Assembly (NCBI GenBank): GCA_025054955.1 | Contig: JANWZE010000152.1 | Span: forward strand, 134,419-197,112 | Reading direction: 5' to 3' | DNA: 62,694 nucleotides | DNA from: Blastocatellia bacterium | GTDB taxonomy: Bacteria; Acidobacteriota; Blastocatellia; HR10; J050 | Shown here: piece by piece, positions 9,651 to 33,874 of the stretch | How positions within the stretch are numbered: the first letter of the stretch is position 1 | Layout: every line of letters begins with the position of its first letter | Notes under the pieces: model-generated | Databases searched by the model: none | What the model was told of the DNA's origin: nothing | The model's input: only the letters and a program-made list of their open reading frames with translations | Made by a program: the position numbers and the translations under genes

Positions 9651-12170
9651 ATGACCTCGACAACGATTCAAGAACTGGCCAGCAAGGAGTACAAGTACGG
9701 ATTCGTAACTGATATCGAAGCCGATGTTGTGCCGCGCGGATTGAATGAGGACATCATTCGCCTGATTTCGGCCAAGAAGAACGAACCTGAATTCATGCTG
9801 GAGTGGCGCCTGAAAGCGTATCGTCACTGGCTCACCATGCAAGAGCCGCGATGGCAGAACGTCCACTATCCGCCGATTGACTATCAAGACATCATTTACT
9901 ATGCCGCTCCCAAGCTGAAGCAGCGGCCCAAGAGCCTGGATGAAGTTGACCCGGTCTTGTTGGAGACCTATGAAAAGCTCGGCATTCCGCTTCGGGAGCA
10001 AGAAATTCTAGCTGGCGTCGCTGTGGATGCCGTGTTCGACAGCATTTCGGTCGCCACGACGTTTAAGGACAAGCTGGCGGAGTTAGGCATCATCTTCTGT
10101 GCATTTTCTGAGGCGGTTCAGCATCACCCCGAGTTGGTGCAGCAGTATCTTGGCTCAGTTGTGCCGTACACCGACAATTTCTTTGCTGCGTTGAACTCGG
10201 CTGTCTTCAGTGATGGATCGTTTGTGTATGTTCCCAAAGGCGTGCGCTGTCCGATGGAGCTGTCCACGTACTTCCGCATCAACGCGGCGGATACAGGCCA
10301 GTTTGAGCGGACGCTGATCATTGCGGATGAGGGCGCTTACGTCTCGTATTTGGAAGGATGCCATCCGGCTGGCGAGCAAGTATGGACACCGACCGGCTGG
10401 GTTAACATTGAGCGGTTGAAGCCGGGTGATGTAGTCTACGACCACACCGGCTCGCCACAGAAAGTACGGGCCGTCATGACACGACATCATCGAGGCGAGA
10501 TGATCACGATTCGTCCTGTCTCCCGATACAATCAATTCCGTTTGACGCCGGAGCATCCTGTGCTCGCCATCAAGCGAGCCGCAGTGGTAGTGAAGCGTCA
10601 GCCCCGGAACGGATGGTTGCCCGAAGCCGACACTCAGAAACTCCTTGAAGCTGAACCCACGTGGATTCCTGCTGGCCAGCTTGAAAAGGGAGACTTTGTG
10701 CTCATTCCAAAATTACGGTGTGCAGGGGCACCTGCCTTTACGAATGAGGAAGTGGAACTGCTTGGGTATTATTTGGCTGAAGGAAGTTCCTACTACAACG
10801 AGGCCAATAAGCAATACACCAATCAATTTTCGTTTGGCTTGCATGAGACCACAATCATCAACCGGGTTCGCACCCTCATTAAGAATGTGACGGGACGCCC
10901 AGCCTATCTGATCGAACAGCCGGACCGGAATGGTGCTGGAATCAGCTTCTTTTCGGAGCAGTATTCCGATTGGTTCATCCGTCACTGTGGGAAAGGCGCC
11001 TGTTCAAAGCGCTTAAGCGCGGAGCTCATGAGCCTTTCAACGCGGCAGACGAGGATTTTCTTGGACGCTTATCTGGCCGGCGACGGAAACATTTGTGACC
11101 GCCAGAACTCCCGGATGATTCGGTTCTGCACAGGCTCGGAAACCGTCGCGCAACAGATTCAGATGCTGCTGAATCGTTTGGGCACGTATGCGTGGGTACA
11201 GGTTCGAGAAGGCGGAGATGTGAAATTCTCTAACCACTCGGACCGAACGATTCACCGTCAGCCGCTCTACCATGTTGGCTACACGGATACCAAGAAGTGG
11301 AGTATGGTCCGCGAAACAGAGACACATTTTATCGTTCCAATTCAAGAGGTGAGGCGGGAACCCTATGATGATTTCGTCTTCAACATTGATGTTGATCGAA
11401 CGCACAGTTATTTAGTTCGCGGTGTGGCTGTCCACAACTGCACGGCGCCCAAACGGGATGAGAATCAACTGCACGCAGCGGTCGTTGAGTTGATCGCGTT
11501 AGATAATGCGACGATCAAGTATTCAACCGTGCAGAATTGGTATCCCGGCGATAAGGATGGCAATGGCGGCATCTATAATTTCGTCACGAAACGTGGCAAG
11601 TGTCTGGGGAAGAATTCCAAAATTTCGTGGACACAAGTCGAAACCGGTTCGGCCATCACATGGAAATATCCGAGTTGTATTTTGCAAGGCGACAACTCAG
11701 TCGGCGAGTTTTATTCAGTTGCATTGACCAACAACTATCAACAGGCGGACACCGGCACGAAGATGATTCACATTGGCAAAAACACGCGCAGCACGATCGT
11801 CTCGAAAGGCATCTCTGCCGGTCACGGTCAGAACACGTATCGCGGCATGGTCAAGATTCTCAAGAGCGCCGATAATGCCCGGAATTATTCGCAGTGCGAT
11901 TCGTTGCTGCTCGGCGACAAATGCGGCGCGCATACGTTCCCCTACATTGAAGTGAGAAACAGCACGGCGCAGATGGAACACGAGGCGTCAACCTCAAAGA
12001 TCGGCGAGGATCAAATTTTCTATTGTCAGCAACGCGGCATCTCAGCGGAAGATGCTGTTTCGATGATCGTCAACGGCTTTTGTAAAGAAGTCTTCCGCGA
12101 GCTGCCGATGGAGTTCGCCGTCGAAGCGCAGAAGCTGCTGGGCATCAGCCTGGAAGGTAGTGTGGGATGA
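9651..12170 (+). CDS. sufB: SufB Fe-S scaffold protein interrupted by an intein
   Basis: The 839-residue precursor would splice to a 479-residue SufB, the core scaffold of the SufBCD complex on which Fe-S clusters form. The N-extein is residues 1-236 and ends in the conserved SYLEG. The intein is residues 237-596. The C-extein restarts at the conserved cysteine of the EGC(S/T)AP motif and runs through [49 protein letters not shown] and the C-terminal [18 protein letters not shown]. Both extein halves are intact and in frame, so function depends on splicing. The stop overlaps a possible upstream sufC ATG. Loss of splicing would remove SufB activity unless another Fe-S system exists elsewhere in the genome. 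Confidence 0.97.
10359..11438 (+). other. LAGLIDADG homing-endonuclease intein inside SufB
   Basis: This in-frame 360-residue insertion (SufB residues 237-596) has every splicing signature: Cys at position 1 ([14 protein letters not shown], block A), TxxH in RLTPEHPVL (T299, H302, block B), terminal His595-Asn596 ([10 protein letters not shown], block G) and Cys597 as the +1 extein residue. Between them lie two LAGLIDADG motifs, LLGYYLAEG (residues 370-378) and LDAYLAGDG (471-479). Both keep the acidic residue, so the endonuclease may still be active. The insertion point is the conserved SufB cysteine, a typical active-site location for inteins. SufB inteins are known from mycobacteria; I cannot tell here whether this site matches those. 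Confidence 0.96.
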
Positions 12171-26140: not shown

Positions 26141-26743
26141 TTAGTGTTTGCCCGGATCAAGCGGGACCCCTTTGCGCGTGGATGTAATGTAGGCTTCCAG
26201 CGCGATCATCTTTTCATCATCCAGCTTCAGCGGGGGTCCTTTCATTGGGTTTTCAATGCACCAGTTGATCATGTCGCGGAGTGTGGCCACCTTTTTCAGT
26301 TGTGTCTGAAATTTGGGATACGTCTCGGGGTGTGTGTTTGCGGCATTGGGGTGACACATGTCGCAGGAGATGCCGATGGTGCCGCCCAACGCTTTCCAGT
26401 CATGAAACAGCTTGTCGCCTTCGGCGATCATGCGTTTTTGTTCGCGTTCCCAGATCATCCGGTCGCGGGCTGTCCATTTGGAGACTTGTTGCGCCTGTTG
26501 TTCAGCATAGGCAGCCATCAACAGGTTGGCCACCTCGCGCGCTTTATCGGGGGGTAGGATTTCGCCTGGACGGACGCCGGCGACTTCCACTGACGTTTGT
26601 CCATCACACAATTGGACGACAAGATCGCCATTGCGGCTCTTCACCTCAGGGTGCGTAGGTGATGTTTGTTGCTGCGCTACGGCGATCAAGACTGTACTGA
26701 AGACAACGGCGAGAATCATTGAGCTTTTGAATCGTTGGTTCAT
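26141..26743 (-). CDS. SoxA-like monoheme c-type cytochrome
   Basis: The 200-residue exported protein has a signal sequence (MNQRFKSSMILAVVFSTVLI, cleavage near AVAQQ) and one heme-attachment motif CDMCH in GGTIGISCDMCHPNAANTHP. The following segment (LRDMINWCIENPMKGPPL) resembles SoxA-family cytochromes and contains an extra cysteine that could act as a ligand. The start at 26743 has GGAGGG upstream. It is the last gene of a leftward run with a metallophosphoesterase (14 bp gap) and a di-heme peroxidase. No other sox gene is nearby, so thiosulfate oxidation is not supported. An electron carrier for the peroxidase is a reasonable guess. Confidence 0.82.
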   Translation of the reverse strand: MNQRFKSSMILAVVFSTVLIAVAQQQTSPTHPEVKSRNGDLVVQLCDGQTSVEVAGVRPGEILPPDKAREVANLLMAAYAEQQAQQVSKWTARDRMIWEREQKRMIAEGDKLFHDWKALGGTIGISCDMCHPNAANTHPETYPKFQTQLKKVATLRDMINWCIENPMKGPPLKLDDEKMIALEAYITSTRKGVPLDPGKH

Positions 26744-26757
26744 GTTGCCCTCCTGAA

Positions 26758-27879
26758 TTAGTAAGATGGGAACACCGGCGCCGGTGGTCGGTGAGTTTTG
26801 CCCCATGAGTCAAGGTAGGCTTTGGCCACAGTCAGCGGGTTGCGGCTCCACAACAGATAATGCTTATCCACATAGCCGCCGCCATACACATCAATTGTGC
26901 CCAGCCCTGCGCCATCGGCTTCGTCAAACGGGTCGGCACGGTCCATCTGGACAGTGAGTTTTGGCAGCCCTTCCGGCGCATACGGCCACGGCCATGCAGT
27001 CGAAAGCATCCCGTGAAAATGAATGTTCCTGATGCGATTGGTTAACATCTGGTGCGTGTGTCCGTGAATGACCGTCACCGATTTGTAAGGGAAGAGCATC
27101 GCCTGAACCGCTTCTGCATCCTCTGTCCAGAAATTCCACGGCCTGTAATACTTGTACAGCGGCGAATGGGAAAAGATGACCAGCGGCGTGGTTTTTGGCA
27201 CCTTGGCCAAATCTTTCTTCAGCCACTCGCGTCCGGCCTCGCCAACTTCAAATCGGCTCTGGATCGGGTTATCTAGCCCGGCCACTGTTAGCATGCGTTC
27301 CATCGGCGTCATGTTGCGTTCGGTCCAGAAATCTTTCTCGTTGACGCTCATCAGCACGATGAAATGAATGCCCTTGTGATCGAACGAATAGTTGGGTGGA
27401 CCGAACAGCTCGATCCACTTCTCTCCCATATCCAGGAACCAATCGTGTTCGCCCACCATCATTTTGACCGGGGCCTTTAGCTCGCTGAGGATCTGTTTGC
27501 CGAGTTCGAGTTCTTTCGGTTGGCCCAACTGTGCCAGGTCGCCGCCAAACAGAACGAAATCCGGCTGCGGGTCCAGCGCGTTGACATCTTTGACCGCGCG
27601 CAGCGCCGCATTGACGAACCGCTCGTTCAACTCGCGCTCGTACAGATGCGTGTCAGAAATGTAAGCGAAGCGGAACGCCGGTTTGTTTTGCGTTGCGGCG
27701 CTGACCACTTCGACAAGCTGAAATGAATGGGGCATGAGCTGCTCAGCCGTTGTGACAGCGGCTGTCATGCTGGCCACTTTGAGGAATGATCGGCGGTCCA
27801 ATCGAGCGACCGCCTGAAAGAAGTCGGCGCGTTCTCGCCGATATTGTTCTTCGCGTTGTTTCCATTTCAAATGCCACAT
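26758..27879 (-). CDS. Tat-exported calcineurin-like metallophosphoesterase
   Basis: The 373-residue protein has a twin-arginine type leader (DRRSFLKVAS at about residues 29-38, then a moderately hydrophobic stretch). The calcineurin-like phosphoesterase motifs follow in order: AYISDTHLYE, FVLFGGDLAQ, MVGEHDW, VIFSHSPLY and VIHGHTHQ. GNHD is replaced by GEHD, a common variant. The start MWHLKWKQREEQYRRERADF has GGGAGG upstream. By family it would be a periplasmic di-metal phosphatase with unknown substrate. It is sandwiched between a cytochrome and a di-heme peroxidase gene, a combination with no obvious shared pathway, which suggests an extracytoplasmic redox or phosphate role. Confidence 0.88.
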   Translation of the reverse strand: MWHLKWKQREEQYRRERADFFQAVARLDRRSFLKVASMTAAVTTAEQLMPHSFQLVEVVSAATQNKPAFRFAYISDTHLYERELNERFVNAALRAVKDVNALDPQPDFVLFGGDLAQLGQPKELELGKQILSELKAPVKMMVGEHDWFLDMGEKWIELFGPPNYSFDHKGIHFIVLMSVNEKDFWTERNMTPMERMLTVAGLDNPIQSRFEVGEAGREWLKKDLAKVPKTTPLVIFSHSPLYKYYRPWNFWTEDAEAVQAMLFPYKSVTVIHGHTHQMLTNRIRNIHFHGMLSTAWPWPYAPEGLPKLTVQMDRADPFDEADGAGLGTIDVYGGGYVDKHYLLWSRNPLTVAKAYLDSWGKTHRPPAPVFPSY

Positions 27880-27965
27880 AGTCGCCTCCCAAAAAGCATG
27901 GGCAGCCGCAGGCCGGCAGCGATCGGTCGTAGTCGTGTCATCCACCGGCCCTGTCGGCTGTCCAC

Positions 27966-29162
27966 TTAAAGTTTTTCTTCTCCCCGCGCCAGTCGCCGCA
28001 CGCGGTCACTGGTCAGGGTTTTGAGAAATTCTTCCAGATCGCTGATTTCAGAGTCTGTCAAATTCAATTTGATGATCCCGCCGTCGAGGTTCGGGTTCGG
28101 CTCGCCGCCTTTATTGTAAAACTCGATCACCTCGCGCAGCGTCTTGAGACTGCCATCATGCATATAGGGTGCGGTCAGCTCAATATCACGCAGGGGTGAT
28201 GTTTTGAATGCGCCCAGATCACGCGGTTGCCGTGTGACCAGGAATCGTCCCAACTCGGAAAAGCCTTCCGTCAACGCCAGCTTATCGAGCGCTTCTTGTG
28301 TGAGCGTGCCTTGTTGAGCCATGCGTTGAATCTGTCGGGTTAGCGCCTCGAAATTCTGCGTCGCTTTCATCCCGATACCGATGTTGTGATATTTGAAGTC
28401 GGTAAAGAAAACCGACGAGGTGTTGAATTCATGGCAGGTGATACAGCGTGCTTTGCCCTTGAACAATTCCCAGCCCCGCTGCGCGGCTGGGCTGATGGCC
28501 TGTTTATCGCCGGCGATGAACCGGTCGAACGGCGCGTCGCCGGAAAGCTGCGTTCGCTCAAACGCAGCAATCGCCTTGACAACGTTGTCAATCGTAATAG
28601 GCCCGCCAAATACTTCACGAAATCGTCTGACGTAGTCGGCGTCCTGTTGAAGTTTGGCCACGACAGCCGCATGTGATGGCATGGCCATCTCCAGCGGGTT
28701 GATCAGCGGTCCCTTGGCTTGTTCTTCCAACGACGAGGCGCGTCCATCCCAGAATTGCTCAACGTTAAACATGGCGTTCAAGATCGTCGGTGAATTTCGC
28801 GCGCCCTTCTTGCCGCCGACACCTTCGGCCACCGGTTTGCCATCAGTGAAGGCCAGCGCCGGGTCATGGCAGGTCGCGCAACTGACCGTGTTATCCACGG
28901 AGAGTCGCTTATCGAAGTAAAGGTCTCTGCCGAGCGCCACCTTGGCTTCGGTGATCGGATTGTCCTCAGGAATAAACATCTCCCACAGATCAGCGGGAAT
29001 CGCCGGCGGCAACGATATGGTGAATTTCTTTGCTTGTATCGCTGGTGATGCAGCGACCCACGTTGGCCGGTTGCCAGAAGCGACCAGGCCAACCAACATC
29101 ACCGCCGTGACACTGAGCAACAGGAATAATTTGATCGCTTGCTTGTACCGTGTCTGCATCAT
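27966..29162 (-). CDS. Di-heme cytochrome c peroxidase (CcpA/MauG family)
   Basis: The 398-residue exported di-heme enzyme has an N-terminal signal segment (LFLLLSVTAVMLVGLVAS) and two CxxCH motifs: VSCATCHDPALAF in the first domain and ARCITCHEFNTS in the second. The conserved framework LGRDLYFDKRLS, NSPTILNAMFN, FWDGRASSLEEQA and LTAPYMHDGSLKTLREVIEFY is present; the Met in the last block is the usual distal ligand region. These enzymes reduce hydrogen peroxide in the periplasm or oxidise protein residues (MauG type). It heads the leftward operon with the phosphoesterase and the monoheme cytochrome, and diverges from the ECF sigma gene 108 bp away. Confidence 0.93.
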   Translation of the reverse strand: MMQTRYKQAIKLFLLLSVTAVMLVGLVASGNRPTWVAASPAIQAKKFTISLPPAIPADLWEMFIPEDNPITEAKVALGRDLYFDKRLSVDNTVSCATCHDPALAFTDGKPVAEGVGGKKGARNSPTILNAMFNVEQFWDGRASSLEEQAKGPLINPLEMAMPSHAAVVAKLQQDADYVRRFREVFGGPITIDNVVKAIAAFERTQLSGDAPFDRFIAGDKQAISPAAQRGWELFKGKARCITCHEFNTSSVFFTDFKYHNIGIGMKATQNFEALTRQIQRMAQQGTLTQEALDKLALTEGFSELGRFLVTRQPRDLGAFKTSPLRDIELTAPYMHDGSLKTLREVIEFYNKGGEPNPNLDGGIIKLNLTDSEISDLEEFLKTLTSDRVRRLARGEEKL

Positions 29163-29270: not shown

Positions 29271-29870
29271 TTGATGGAAGCAATCATGGTCACGGGGTCG
29301 GCGGTGGACGGGTCGGTGTTAACTGAATTTGAGCGCTCGGCATTGGAGCACTTACAGCCGCTCTATGGTTATGCTATGGCGCTGACCCACAACGCGACTG
29401 ATGCTGAAGATTTAGTGCAGGAGACCTACTTGCGGGCTATTCGCAGCGCGCAGCGGGCGGTCCCGACTGGTGACATGAAGAGTTGGTTATTCACCATCTT
29501 GCGCAATCTGTGGCTCAATCGCCGGCGCCGGCACGTTCACGGACCCGATTTTCTCTCGCTGGAAGGCGAGGTGGCGGAGGCCAACGAGCCTGATTGGTTC
29601 GTGGATGAGCGTCATCGGCCTGATGTGGACTTTGATCGCGCTATGTTGCGGCACGAGCTTCGCGCAGCGCTCGATGATTTGCCCGATATATTTCGTGAGG
29701 TGATTGTGCTCAGGTGTATCGAAGAGTTTAGCTACAGTCAGATTGCGCAGATTCTGAATTGCCCGGCGGGCACGGTCATGTCACGGCTGAGTCGCGCGCG
29801 CGCGGCGCTGCGCCGCCGGCTCGGCGTCTATCTCAGCGACTCATGGTCCTATATGGAGGAACAGCCGTGA
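29271..29870 (+). CDS. ECF RNA polymerase sigma factor
   Basis: The 199-residue group 4 (ECF) sigma factor has region 2 at about residues 30-100 (YGYAMALTHNATDAEDLVQETYLRA) and region 4 at about 130-190 (DLPDIFREVIVLRCIEEFSY and AQILNCPAGTVMSRLSRAR). A roughly 40-residue acidic linker lies between them. The first residues (MMEAIMVTGS) offer several starts (29271, 29274, 29286). Its stop overlaps the anti-sigma start codon (GTGA), so the pair is co-translated. The divergent di-heme peroxidase and the downstream porin/decaheme genes are likely targets by position only. Confidence 0.92.
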   Translation: MMEAIMVTGSAVDGSVLTEFERSALEHLQPLYGYAMALTHNATDAEDLVQETYLRAIRSAQRAVPTGDMKSWLFTILRNLWLNRRRRHVHGPDFLSLEGEVAEANEPDWFVDERHRPDVDFDRAMLRHELRAALDDLPDIFREVIVLRCIEEFSYSQIAQILNCPAGTVMSRLSRARAALRRRLGVYLSDSWSYMEEQP

Positions 29871-30691
29871 ACGAGCATCCAGTTGAACGCATCATGTTCT
29901 ATGTGGACGCCGAATTGCAGGGCGATGAGCGACGAGCCTTTGAGCAGCATGTCAGCCAGTGTCAAAGCTGCCGGGCGATGCTACAGGACCAACTGCGATG
30001 GCAGGCAGCGATTCGTCGCGTGCGGCCGCTCTATCCGGTTCCCGATGAGTTGCGTGCCCGGCTGACCTGCTTATTAACCAATTCACGTCCTTCATCCTGG
30101 AGCCACCGTCGGACGCGCATCGGATTGGCGGCGGCTGCTGTGCTGGTGGCGGCATTGAGCATTGTGCTGTGGTATCGGCCTCCAGCCGCGCCGCCGCCGT
30201 CAAGTTTTGCGCTGGCCGCTGTTGAGGCGCATCAGCGGTACACCCGCCAGCAGTTGCCGTTGGAAATTACCAGCGAATCGCCTGAGACGATTTCCCAGTG
30301 GTTTGTTGGCAAGCTGCCATTCAACGTCAAACTACCCAATTATCCCGAAGGGCCGGGTCAATCCAAGCCGTATCAAATTGTCGGCGCGCGGCTGATGGGC
30401 TTCAATCAAGATTATGTCGCCTACGTGGCCTACCGGTTGCGCAACCGCGCGATTTCATTATTGGTGACAACTCAGAAGGCCGCTCAGCCTTCCGGTGGCG
30501 AACAAATTGCCTGGCAAGGACTCACCTTCCACTTCAACGCCATCAACGGATGGAAGGTACTGACGTGGTCGGATAATGGATTGACTTACGCGCTAGTCTC
30601 TGACTTTGAAGAACGAGGGCAAGCCTCCTGTATTGTCTGCCATCCAGGGCCGCAAGACCAACGCATGTTTGAAGGATTGCGGCTGAAGTAG
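29867..30691 (+). CDS. Membrane anti-sigma factor with C-terminal CxxCH heme motif
   Basis: The 274-residue protein starts at a GTG overlapping the sigma-factor stop. The N-terminus is a zinc anti-sigma domain (H28-x3-C32-x2-C35 in EQHVSQCQSC). One transmembrane helix (about residues 85-103) puts the rest in the periplasm. The sensor domain has the usual ending of this class (NGWKVLTWSDNGLTYALVSD). It then carries an unusual tail ERGQASCIVCHPGPQDQ, where C255-x-x-C258-H259 is a c-type heme attachment motif. By its location between two heme-protein operons it could sense heme, peroxide or periplasmic redox state. The motif is seen directly; heme binding and signalling are inference. Confidence 0.85.
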   Translation: MNEHPVERIMFYVDAELQGDERRAFEQHVSQCQSCRAMLQDQLRWQAAIRRVRPLYPVPDELRARLTCLLTNSRPSSWSHRRTRIGLAAAAVLVAALSIVLWYRPPAAPPPSSFALAAVEAHQRYTRQQLPLEITSESPETISQWFVGKLPFNVKLPNYPEGPGQSKPYQIVGARLMGFNQDYVAYVAYRLRNRAISLLVTTQKAAQPSGGEQIAWQGLTFHFNAINGWKVLTWSDNGLTYALVSDFEERGQASCIVCHPGPQDQRMFEGLRLK

Positions 30692-30697
30692 TCACGC

Positions 30698-32827
30698 TCA
30701 GAACGAGAATCGTAAGCTGGTGGTCAGCAGATGGGCGTGGTAGTCCTGCGCCGTGCGGAACTGCTCATTATAGTCGTAGCGTTGATAATCGAGCCGCAGG
30801 CTCACCGCCCGGTGTAGCGGCACAGCAAGATGCGCATAGGGGCGGTGAAAGCGAATCGGATAGCTGCCCTGCGAGCGCGTCCAACGATACCCAAGCCCGC
30901 TGCGAATTCCTTTCAACAACGTCACGTCGGCGCCGGCGTGCAGCACATCGCTGGTTTCCGTGTAAAGAATCAACGGACGCGCTGCGCCTTCCTGTGTCAG
31001 GTCAATCGTGTTGATATGAGCGGTGATGTGACCCCGTGTGTAGTCAACATCAAAGGCTAACCGCTGGGTCGGGAACCAACTGACCGACAAACCGCTGCTG
31101 CGATTGCGATTTTGGTTGACGTTGGCGCGGCTCGGCTGCGCCAATGAGCGACTTGGTCTGGTCTGATCGCTGATAGCGCCGAAGGCTGTCACTGACCATT
31201 GGTCGGTTGGCTTAAGCTGGAGGCGCAGCCGGCCACGTTGAAAATCGCGCGTATCAACGCGAATGAACTCGGTCAGGTAGCCGCCGTTCTCGTAATCGAG
31301 CGCGACGCGCACTACTCGCCGGAGTCGGTAACTGCCGCCGACGAGCAACGTGTGCGCCGTTTGCATGGCATCCTCGTCGCGCACGCGGTCCAATGAAGGC
31401 AGGCTCGGCCCCGTTATCGAGTCGAAGGCTTGGTCGCGTTGTTGAAAGAGCGCGCGACGATGATTGACGCGATGCCCGGCTCGCACCAGCAGGTTCTTGG
31501 TGAAGGCAAACTCACCCTGCACTTGATTCATGACCGAGCGCAGCGACGTGCGACGATAGGATATTTCTTCGCGCACGACGGGCACGTCCGGCAGATCAGC
31601 ATCCACCAACTGGTCGCGTAGGATGCGCTCGCCAGCAATCACATAATGCGAGCCGCGCAGTATGTGAGTCACAGCAAGCCGCCGGCTCACGTGGATGCGT
31701 AGTGTGCCGTCGCCCACCGTGTACGGCTTGCTCGGCGCGGCGCGGCTGGCCGACAACTCGCTGGCTGCGAAGATGCCGAGATCACGGTTGAAAACCAGCC
31801 CGGTGAAGGCTCGGCTGTAGGTCGCGTCAATTTCCGCATCGCTGTAGTAGAGTCGCCCGTTGAACACGACACGCGGGATTTGATTGGAGACAATAGCCAC
31901 GCGCGTTGTGGGGATCGAGCCGCGAACAAAATCGTTGCGCCGAAGCTGATCAAGGAAGAGTTGGTAGAGATCAAACAGCAACCCAGCATCATTGCCTGCC
32001 GTATAGTCTCGCCGTGTGTGTCCTTCGTCGTTGTTGAAGTCGCGCCAGGCTTGCTCAAAGCTGATGCCCAGTTTCCAGAGGCGGAGGTCAAAGCCGGCGC
32101 GATAATCGTTGACCCGATTTTTCACGTGTCGCCCAATCAAAAATTCATCGCCACCCAGATTGACGGTGGAGAAGGCCGGACCAAACGCGCTGTTGCGAGC
32201 ATAGGCAGCATGCAGTTGAAACCGTTGCGCATTGGGGAAAATCGTCAATCGCGCATTGGACATTCGGCGCGTTGCGTCGCTGCTGTGTTGGCCGAAGGTG
32301 ACGCCCTGCCCGAATAGTGGGTTGGCAAATTCGGGAATGAAATGGAAGTAGTCAATCTTTTGGTAGCGGTACTGAAAGTCATAGGCGAGGTTCTTTTTCA
32401 GATGAACCGTCGCCGTGTTGTATGGCTCGCCGCCCCAGTTGTCGAAGGTGATAGAAAGCCGGTCGAACCAGCGACCACTGCTTTCTGGGGCGCTCAGCTC
32501 GGTCGCGCCATGCAACAGCTTCATGCCGTTGCCCAGGTTGACATGGCTGCGGTAAACATCCTCATTGCCCTGCACATCACGCCAGCGCGCGCCCAACTCA
32601 ATCGTGCTGTTGAACAACAGCCCATTGAGACTCACCGTATCTTGCGCTGGCGCGCTCGCCGAGGCAGCAGCGGGTGAGGGCACTGAGCTGACTCGGCGCG
32701 CTTCGGCGACTTGCGGATTGGCCGGCGGTTGCTCTGCTAGGCCACGAGCGGCGGCGATCATGACGATGATGATCGCGGTCATCCATTGGCTTATCATCCT
32801 GCTTTTGTCATTCATCTTGGTGTTCAT
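30698..32827 (-). CDS. Outer-membrane beta-barrel, MtrB/PioB-like porin
   Basis: The 709-residue protein has a signal sequence (about residues 12-31, ending GLAEQ) and a Pro/Ala-rich segment. The remainder is alternating beta-strands rich in Arg and aromatic residues, ending in a terminal Phe (TTSLRFSF), as outer-membrane barrels do. Length and the partner gene fit the MtrB/PioB family, in which a large barrel sheathes a decaheme cytochrome so electrons can cross the outer membrane. The CxxC seen near the N-terminus of Shewanella MtrB is absent. It lies 12 bp downstream of the decaheme gene on the same strand. Assignment rests on size, barrel features and context. Confidence 0.82.
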   Translation of the reverse strand: MNTKMNDKSRMISQWMTAIIIVMIAAARGLAEQPPANPQVAEARRVSSVPSPAAASASAPAQDTVSLNGLLFNSTIELGARWRDVQGNEDVYRSHVNLGNGMKLLHGATELSAPESSGRWFDRLSITFDNWGGEPYNTATVHLKKNLAYDFQYRYQKIDYFHFIPEFANPLFGQGVTFGQHSSDATRRMSNARLTIFPNAQRFQLHAAYARNSAFGPAFSTVNLGGDEFLIGRHVKNRVNDYRAGFDLRLWKLGISFEQAWRDFNNDEGHTRRDYTAGNDAGLLFDLYQLFLDQLRRNDFVRGSIPTTRVAIVSNQIPRVVFNGRLYYSDAEIDATYSRAFTGLVFNRDLGIFAASELSASRAAPSKPYTVGDGTLRIHVSRRLAVTHILRGSHYVIAGERILRDQLVDADLPDVPVVREEISYRRTSLRSVMNQVQGEFAFTKNLLVRAGHRVNHRRALFQQRDQAFDSITGPSLPSLDRVRDEDAMQTAHTLLVGGSYRLRRVVRVALDYENGGYLTEFIRVDTRDFQRGRLRLQLKPTDQWSVTAFGAISDQTRPSRSLAQPSRANVNQNRNRSSGLSVSWFPTQRLAFDVDYTRGHITAHINTIDLTQEGAARPLILYTETSDVLHAGADVTLLKGIRSGLGYRWTRSQGSYPIRFHRPYAHLAVPLHRAVSLRLDYQRYDYNEQFRTAQDYHAHLLTTSLRFSF

Positions 32828-32839
32828 CGCGCTGCCTTC

Positions 32840-33874
32840 TTACCGGAAGAAGAGTCGGCTTGTATTCGAGCCGTGAATCATCACGTGGCAACTGGTGCAA
32901 TGCTGATACCGAGGGTTCGTCAGGTCATGGATCCCTTGCGGCAAATCACCAGACGCCCCCTGACGGTCGAAGTGACATTCCTGACAAAGCATCCGGACTT
33001 CGCTGCGAATTAAGAGCCGATTGTTAATCGAACCGTGCGGCGTATGACAGGTCAGGCATTGGTCGGCGAGAAACCGGCTCTCATTCAGTTGATTGTGCTC
33101 GAACACGAACGGCCCCTGCTTGTCCGTGTGACAACGCACGCAAATAGAGCTTATGCCGCCGGCCAGCTCGACCGTCTGCGTTCGATTCAGCGAGCCGTGT
33201 TGCTGATGACAATCGCGGCAATCCATGGCGCCTTCAGGGACTTTGTGATGAAACGGACGGGCAAACTCTGCTTTGATTTCGCGGTGGCAGTTGAAGCACA
33301 AGGCTGGAGACTTCTCCCGCAGGATATACGGATGAGTGATTTCCTGATGCGGATTGTGGCAGTCGTGACAGGCCACCACGTCTACGTTGTGCTGGTTCTG
33401 CTGAAAGCCACATTGACCGAGACGTTTTTCTTGGTGACAGCTCGTGCACATGGCCACAACGTCCCTGGCCGCGGCTTTACGTGGATTGAAAATAGCGACC
33501 GGCCCGCCGCCTGCTTCGACGTGTTGTTTGCCCGGTCCGTGACACATTTCGCACCCTTTTGTGGGCGGGATAAACTTCTCGCTTTTGATGGTGGCGAAGT
33601 GCGCTGTGCGTGAGAGCCACTGATACTGGCTGGGATGACAGACCCGACAGGTTTCAGCGCCAACATAGTTTTCCGCTCCGGCCATAGGATTTTGCTCAGT
33701 CGGCCTGGGCGCTTGATCCTCGACAGCGCGTTCGGACGCCCGGGAGGCTGCCGCTTCAGGGCGCGGCTGCGCGTTGCCGGTCAGTGGACTCAGCGAGTGG
33801 CTGAACGTCATCAGGCTGATGGGGAAAAATACGCCCATGGTGATGAGCTTGATGCGAACTCGCCAATGTTTCAT
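32840..33874 (-). CDS. Decaheme c-type cytochrome, MtrA/DmsE-like
   Basis: The 344-residue exported protein has ten CxxCH motifs, in order CRVCH, CEMCH, CTSCH, CHDCH, CFNCH, CRDCH, CVRCH, CLTCH, CQECH and CTSCH, plus several extra histidines placed as distal ligands. The N-terminus is a signal segment (IKLITMGVFFPISLMTFSHS) followed by a roughly 45-residue linker. Ten hemes in about 300 residues and the terminal ...CHVMIHGSN motif are typical of the DmsE/MtrA family, periplasmic wires that plug into an MtrB-type porin. The porin gene follows directly. No outer-surface multiheme cytochrome (MtrC-like) or inner-membrane quinol oxidase is encoded in the window. Confidence 0.93.
   Translation of the reverse strand: MKHWRVRIKLITMGVFFPISLMTFSHSLSPLTGNAQPRPEAAASRASERAVEDQAPRPTEQNPMAGAENYVGAETCRVCHPSQYQWLSRTAHFATIKSEKFIPPTKGCEMCHGPGKQHVEAGGGPVAIFNPRKAAARDVVAMCTSCHQEKRLGQCGFQQNQHNVDVVACHDCHNPHQEITHPYILREKSPALCFNCHREIKAEFARPFHHKVPEGAMDCRDCHQQHGSLNRTQTVELAGGISSICVRCHTDKQGPFVFEHNQLNESRFLADQCLTCHTPHGSINNRLLIRSEVRMLCQECHFDRQGASGDLPQGIHDLTNPRYQHCTSCHVMIHGSNTSRLFFR

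Follow-up and report, generated by a model that had tools for sequence, protein, structure and literature searches.

A divergent, stand-alone MtrAB-type gene pair in a bacterium of the class Blastocatellia

Introduction

The gene pair described here, a decaheme c-type cytochrome and an outer-membrane porin, lies in a 62,694-nucleotide stretch of the genome of a Blastocatellia bacterium (GenBank assembly GCA_025054955.1, contig JANWZE010000152.1, positions 134,419 to 197,112), and its closest described counterparts are the MtrAB electron conduits. This whole stretch, referred to below as the window, makes up the last part of a 197-kb contig; the genome measures 4.69 Mb and is rated 99.48% complete. 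The pair is a machine of a known type, here divergent and stand-alone, and comes from a little-studied class. It very probably constitutes an MtrAB-type outer-membrane electron conduit, with the decaheme lodged in a 26-strand barrel, and an old paralogue of a second pair that lies in a larger gene cluster on contig C23 of the same genome.

In Shewanella MtrAB, available as PDB entry 6R2Q from the Mtr complex of Shewanella baltica, the porin MtrB is described as 26 antiparallel strands (PMC7198977). MtrAB alone can carry electrons across a membrane (PMC4245776), and MtoAB of Sideroxydans and PioAB of Rhodopseudomonas resemble the pair studied here in having the MtrAB core without MtrC (PMC4245776, PMC8805035). 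The porin-cytochrome complexes (Pcc) of Geobacter are alike in working principle only, Pcc and Mtr proteins being described as phylogenetically unrelated (PMC4245776). Within the Acidobacteriota, an MtrCAB group from Acidobacteriia has been described in PMC8805035, whose main text yields no Blastocatellia on a word search; a relative of MtrB has been reported from Holophaga (PMC7399161), and Pio homologues have been noted for the phylum. No published work on the lineage considered below was found in the open-licence literature.

Results

The decaheme cytochrome and the porin

On the minus strand the decaheme gene comes first and the porin gene follows after a gap of 12 bases (Table 1). An earlier note on this DNA, made from the sequence letters, had delimited both genes, counted ten CxxCH motifs in one product and described the other as a 709-residue protein ending in Phe, all of which was confirmed. 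The cytochrome scores 221.1 bits against TIGR03508, the MtrA/DmsE family, passing the curated cut-off of 192.2, and fails that of NF041028, the GSU2203-family decahemes (195.4 bits, curated cut-off 325). It contains exactly ten CxxCH motifs and 21 Cys in total; a six-frame scan of the window revealed five open frames longer than 60 amino acids (aa) with CxxCH, the decaheme being the sole one with more than two. Its top sequence match in the PDB is 6r2q_A (E 3.5e-37, and E 1.1e-39 in a profile search), a chain to which the PDB file gives the name of a different protein. Across an alignment of the five stand-alone orthologues defined below, the ten heme His and 11 other His are invariant, which by number would be enough for ten bis-His hemes. 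A signal-like stretch was recognised by eye at the N-terminus. Residues 261-272 (window positions 33059-33094) mark a five-residue insertion preceding the eighth heme motif, absent in the four other aligned orthologues. A plasmid search with the decaheme returned two records, from Photobacterium and Rhizobium, and one with the porin returned no match.

An AlphaFold2 model of the porin, built on a five-sequence alignment, has 26 strands of at least 8 residues (mean predicted local distance difference test, pLDDT, 60.6; predicted template modelling score, pTM, 0.52). Foldseek ranked 6r2q_B (MtrB) first among PDB chains, with E 2.0e-13 against 2.4e-8 for the runner-up, and VIA-align did so over porin residues 64-709 (Z 22.2, root-mean-square deviation 4.0, 516 residues aligned), its runner-up spanning residues 315-666 with Z 18.0. 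A sequence search of the PDB with the porin gave just two chance-level matches (E 1.3 and 1.4). Going by the model, the porin appears to be an MtrB-type barrel by fold that stands outside the profile-defined MtrB/PioB family. Gammaproteobacterial MtrB has an N-terminal CxxC, which is absent from the Cys-free window porin. The barrel, a guess in the earlier note, was thus borne out by the model and its top match, and the decaheme fell into the MtrA/DmsE family and not elsewhere. Since the decaheme exceeds the TIGR03508 cut-off and the porin has the MtrB fold, there is support for the proposal of that note that the two make up the core of a conduit across the outer membrane.

Conservation of the pair and its two lineages

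The two genes are kept as neighbours in four further genomes of the order (G001, which belongs to the family of the window genome, G002, G003 and G006), with porin identities of 43-57% to the orthologues, and the pairing is therefore not fortuitous. In both the decaheme and the porin trees the window and these four genomes make up one lineage, here called stand-alone, while the members with a larger gene cluster form a separate clade, the cluster lineage. The 43-row decaheme tree supports the five stand-alone rows at 97/90, the same rows plus the sequence G013b at 100/99, the eight cluster rows at 98/91 and the two lineages joined at 90/83; corresponding values in the 36-row tree are 92/78, 100/99, 93/92 and 99/98. 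The porin tree gives 100/100 for the five rows and 100/99 for ten. The trees proposed in the earlier note were thus run in part: the decaheme references comprised two gammaproteobacterial MtrA and Acidobacteriota sequences, with no PioA, MtoA or DmsE among them, and two lineages were resolved. This order of Blastocatellia accordingly appears, from its sequences, to hold two old MtrAB lineages, a rich-cluster one and the bare one of the window.

The 36-row decaheme tree and the porin tree used each locus once, redundant copies being removed by locus identifier, and two very long rows (L072, L074) were also dropped from the 43-row tree. The decaheme approximately unbiased (AU) test and its tree were made with two further long rows and both references dropped, and the porin AU test with the Photobacterium and L072 porins dropped; no analysis included the L073 protein with its 18 CxxCH or the short L075 protein. 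The decaheme G013b joins the stand-alone lineage at 100/99, and the placement of its porin is uncertain (AU p 0.237). The two genes disagree over the nearest relative of the window pair. The porin tree groups the window with G006 (100/98), its grouping with G001 and G002 being rejected (AU p 0.018), whereas the decaheme trees group it with G001 and G002 (96/87 in 36 rows, 93/69 in 43 rows), and there the grouping with G006 was not rejected (AU p 0.085). Such a conflict may possibly reflect gene exchange within the order.

Gene maps were drawn by a greedy choice of open reading frames (ORFs), in which antisense ORFs masked the decahemes of L033 and L037 and the anti-sigma genes of L106, L109 and L110 (later recovered), so that absence from a map is a weak negative. 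On these maps no cytochrome is listed around the stand-alone pair of G006, and a mono-heme protein follows the porin in G003. In both G001 and G002 a five-gene set resembling Qrc or alternative complex III (ACIII) is convergent with the pair and encodes a pentaheme protein, a molybdopterin-like protein, an iron-sulfur (FeS) protein, an NrfD-like protein and a 174-aa protein. A scan of named genome contigs returned eight loci, three of them from the stand-alone lineage.

Comparison with described systems

With Shewanella MtrAB the pair shares the decaheme family, the ten hemes and the 26-strand barrel fold; unlike it, the window porin, 12% identical to 6r2q_B in the structural alignment, is free of Cys and lies under TIGR03509 detection, and the unit lacks MtrC. 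The same absence of an OmcA/MtrC gene separates it from MtrCAB. From MtoAB and PioAB, compared by gene content only, it differs in having no adjacent CymA, MtoD or PioC gene. Between 26.0 and 37.5 kb no free ORF of at least 50 aa is left for a pioC beside the pair, genes for high-potential iron-sulfur proteins elsewhere in the genome not having been searched for, and CxxCH motifs occur in the window, besides the decaheme, only in the MauG-like, SoxA-like, anti-sigma and SufBD-core genes. Shewanella DmsEF is alike in that the NCBI family of the decaheme carries the DmsE name; it differs in that no DmsA-type gene was found beside the window pair. A Pfam scan of 44 of the 54 window ORFs of at least 170 aa detected no molybdopterin reductase, DmsA or DmsB. 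Two of the identities suggested in the earlier note, a PioAB-like and a DMSO-type system, therefore found no adjacent partner gene to sustain them.

Candidate partners elsewhere in the genome

Neither the CxxCH frame scan nor the same Pfam scan found a surface cytochrome or quinol oxidase in the window, as the earlier note had said. A second decaheme, 48% identical to that of the window over the matched part, lies on contig C23 at a separation of at least about 66 kb (from contig positions). There, as in the window, the decaheme precedes a porin; the C23 pair (locus L003) is about 43% identical to the window pair in the decaheme and about 32% in the porin. Unlike the window pair, it sits with genes for a histidine kinase, a sigma-54-type response regulator, a small cytochrome c, a CbcL-like protein that combines 11 CxxCH with a cytochrome b561-type domain, an OmcA/MtrC-family decaheme and a NapC-family protein (ImcH-like) with five CxxCH and one CX3CH. 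The OmcA/MtrC protein (504.3 bits, cut-off 209.3) is the only one in the genome above its cut-off, and the only NapC-family match above cut-off is likewise on C23. The genome search suggested by the earlier note thus produced both families, and a simple motif search found no lipobox on the OmcA/MtrC protein. The distant surface partner that the note had envisaged may exist in this protein, but its gene stands beside another decaheme-porin pair.

At L003 10267-14851 the ImcH/NapC-like gene adjoins mtrAB, alongside the CbcL-like and OmcA/MtrC genes, and ImcH/NapC-like relatives also occur near mtrAB in L033, L037 and L128; PMC6295460 states that mtrAB was not found adjacent to imcH. An operon on C56 encodes a fused 984-aa molybdopterin-FeS protein and NrfD-type proteins and is read as an ACIII, NCBI QrcB and QrcC models matching the protein under their cut-off. 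Additional multiheme proteins are encoded on C142, C133, C50, C9 and C152, a non-exhaustive list obtained with few profiles; at L086 1137-5040 (C142) a cytochrome c552-family gene is flanked by 11-CxxCH and 5-CxxCH genes. The labels CbcL-like, ImcH-like and ACIII-like derive from gene order, domain hits or published descriptions, and not from profiles. Elsewhere, a Qrc/ACIII-like complex stands beside MtrAB or MtrCAB at L030 8805-14431, L031 2155-7771, L126 2223-7177 and L129 11796-18030. On this gene content the complex is a candidate inner-membrane quinone module for Acidobacteriota conduits.

Distribution in the order, class and phylum

The position of OmcA/MtrC varies within the cluster lineage: the gene is directly beside that of the decaheme in G000, G001 and G002, some 6-11 kb away in G004, G005 and G007, and on a different contig in G003, G006 and G008; it was not found in G009, a genome 73% complete. 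Of 58 genomes of the class, 40 gave a porin match at E 0.001, in some cases weak or fragmentary, and nine gave OmcA/MtrC at E 1e-10, every one of these nine being in the order of the window (9/10 there). Outside this order the class has porin matches in 30 of 48 genomes and OmcA/MtrC in none (0/48). MtrAB without MtrC appears, from the difference between these two counts, to be common in Blastocatellia. Other surface cytochromes are possible at class loci without OmcA/MtrC, since proteins with 8 and 9 CxxCH stand beside the porin at L042, L043 and L047. In a phylum sample of 396 genomes, 20 contained a match to the window porin at E 1e-40. At each of eight loci from other classes the decaheme has an OmcA/MtrC relative nearby (one locus being cut by a contig end), and in two of them the Qrc/ACIII-like set adjoins mtrCAB (L126 of G145, L129 of G192).

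The neighbouring sigma/anti-sigma module

A further set of genes, not counted in the conduit, is listed in Table 1.

Table 1. Coordinates of the gene pair and of neighbouring genes in the window
Feature	Coordinates	Strand	Relation to conduit	Basis and remarks
Decaheme c-type cytochrome, MtrA/DmsE family, stand-alone lineage	32840..33874	-	first gene of pair	344 aa; TIGR03508, ten CxxCH, PDB match, trees
Outer-membrane beta-barrel of MtrB-type fold	30698..32827	-	second gene of pair	709 aa; AlphaFold2 model, 6r2q_B match, orthologues
zf-HC2 anti-sigma, C-terminal CxxCH	29759..30691	+	not counted	zf-HC2 domain
Extracytoplasmic function (ECF) sigma factor	29271..29870	+	not counted	Sigma70_r2/r4; paired with anti-sigma in loci away from MtrAB
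MauG/MbnH-type di-heme protein	27966..29162	-	not counted	CCP_MauG; divergent from sigma gene
Calcineurin-like phosphoesterase	26758..27945	-	not counted	PF00149
SoxA/TsdA-like mono-heme cytochrome	26141..26806	-	not counted	PF21342

The C-terminal CxxCH of the anti-sigma protein is kept in all 17 fetched homologues (L103-L119). Around these 17 loci a MauG-like gene (at least 58% identity) is near in seven, the phosphoesterase in four and the SoxA-like gene in five; the MauG-like protein of the window scores 248.3 bits against TIGR04039, under the cut-off of 362.85. No MtrAB gene is listed at any of the 17 loci, a weak negative given that the greedy maps hid some genes, and in genomes matching both anti-sigma and MtrAB the two are on different contigs or about 58 kb apart (G019). 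Together with the sigma/anti-sigma genes, the MauG-like, phosphoesterase and SoxA-like genes appear to make up a separate module conserved in Blastocatellia. A role of the sigma/anti-sigma pair as regulator of the conduit was considered and rejected as a default, in view of the 17 homologous loci and the separate contigs elsewhere. A sigma-70 promoter scan found one match where 1.9 were expected. If the anti-sigma protein carries a covalent heme, it might sense redox state or a ligand in the periplasm; a literature search on heme-tagged anti-sigma proteins found no relevant paper by title or abstract.

Elsewhere in the window, positions 9651-12170 encode an 839-aa SufBD-type protein in which a wide interval, containing a LAGLIDADG match, separates the N-terminal domain match from that of the core; it probably holds a SufB intein.

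Discussion

By homology with MtrAB, we infer that the two products form a complex in which the decaheme threads the barrel and its ten hemes would provide an insulated wire for electron transfer across the outer membrane. The window lineage would have persisted as two genes alone, with neither an MtrC nor an inner-membrane quinone enzyme of its own. The inner end most likely trades electrons with shared periplasmic cytochromes, fed perhaps by unlinked quinone enzymes, namely the CbcL-like and ImcH/NapC-like proteins of C23 and the ACIII-like operon of C56, and the outer end may either contact soluble or mineral iron directly or dock the single OmcA/MtrC of the genome.

Several observations weigh against this interpretation. 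The porin has no match in NCBIfam or Pfam at E 0.01, and TIGR03509, the MtrB/PioB porin profile, detects nothing at the window locus. The confidence of the porin model is middling, the other four models reaching a mean pLDDT of 39.6-55.4, and 210 chains match it at Foldseek E <=0.001, mostly siderophore-type barrels among the matches listed, with weaker scores than MtrB. The joining of the two lineages is not strongly supported after other classes are added (90/83, and 89/86 in a further tree), and the complex, the partner and the direction are what we infer for the pair.

Among the alternatives, it is possible, though short of what we would expect, that the pair and the OmcA/MtrC of C23 act together in trans as a second conduit for export, reducing minerals or Fe(III), and that it is a spare or condition-specific copy of the C23 one. 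OmcA/MtrC is present in all five genomes of the order with the stand-alone pair, and a distant partner gene would be normal here, as the scattered positions of OmcA/MtrC in the cluster lineage illustrate. This co-occurrence says little, however, because every genome of the order except the incomplete G009 has OmcA/MtrC, and G013, which is rated 100% complete, has a stand-alone-type pair and no OmcA/MtrC at E 1e-10.

More doubtful is a dedicated uptake conduit of the kind proposed for MtoAB and PioAB, in which electrons would pass from Fe(II) or solid donors through the decaheme and a Qrc/ACIII-like complex to the quinone pool. A unit without MtrC resembles the clusters of iron oxidisers (PMC4245776), the pair is convergent with the five-gene complex in G001 and G002, and a similar complex adjoins mtrCAB in the other classes (G145 and G192). 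The large subunit of this complex is found near full length in four of five genomes of the order with the stand-alone pair and in none of the five without it (E 1e-80). This is a lead only, since the five genomes without the pair are of one genus and may reflect a single event, and the window genome has no close copy of the subunit, only the fused 984-aa one on C56. The G001 and G002 complexes moreover score under the cut-offs of QrcA, QrcB and QrcC, and pioC, mtoD and cymA were not found beside the window pair. MtrAB has also been called reversible (PMC12016527), for which reason gene content does not fix the direction; that the direction of electron flow is unreadable from gene content is likewise the position of the authors of PMC8805035 for MtrCAB.

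It is very improbable that there is no conduit at all, the barrel serving as a transporter of an unrelated kind and the decaheme storing electrons free in the periplasm, perhaps under ECF-sigma control. The failure of every MtrB profile tried to find the porin would fit such an arrangement, as would the convergent anti-sigma gene that ends 6 bases from it. Yet the two-gene unit is conserved in five genomes, MtrB leads the fold matches by a clear margin over other barrels, both lineages recur in the decaheme and porin trees, and anti-sigma homologues occupy 17 other loci away from MtrAB. A DmsEF-type system feeding an extracellular molybdopterin reductase, for DMSO or a similar acceptor, is the least probable of all: the NCBI family that lends the decaheme the DmsE name does not, to go by that name and its matches, separate DmsE from MtrA, no such reductase was found among the 44 scanned window ORFs, and the QrcB-profile matches of the genome are on other contigs, weaker reductase relatives not having been searched for.

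The MtrAB-type conduit, acting as a bare pair with shared partners, is therefore the interpretation retained here. A further possibility, though a rather unlikely one, is that the stand-alone lineage has specialised away from MtrC and draws electrons from solids or Fe(II), passing them via a Qrc/ACIII-like complex to menaquinone. If true, these bacteria would possess two opposite extracellular routes, the MtrC-associated pair exporting electrons and the bare pair importing them.

A divergent MtrAB branch appears common in Blastocatellia; its member in the window is missed by the standard porin profile, and most porin-matching genomes of the class are without a recognisable MtrC. Whether it is MtrC that decides which way electrons flow could be tested naturally in an order that keeps both MtrC-associated and bare MtrAB.

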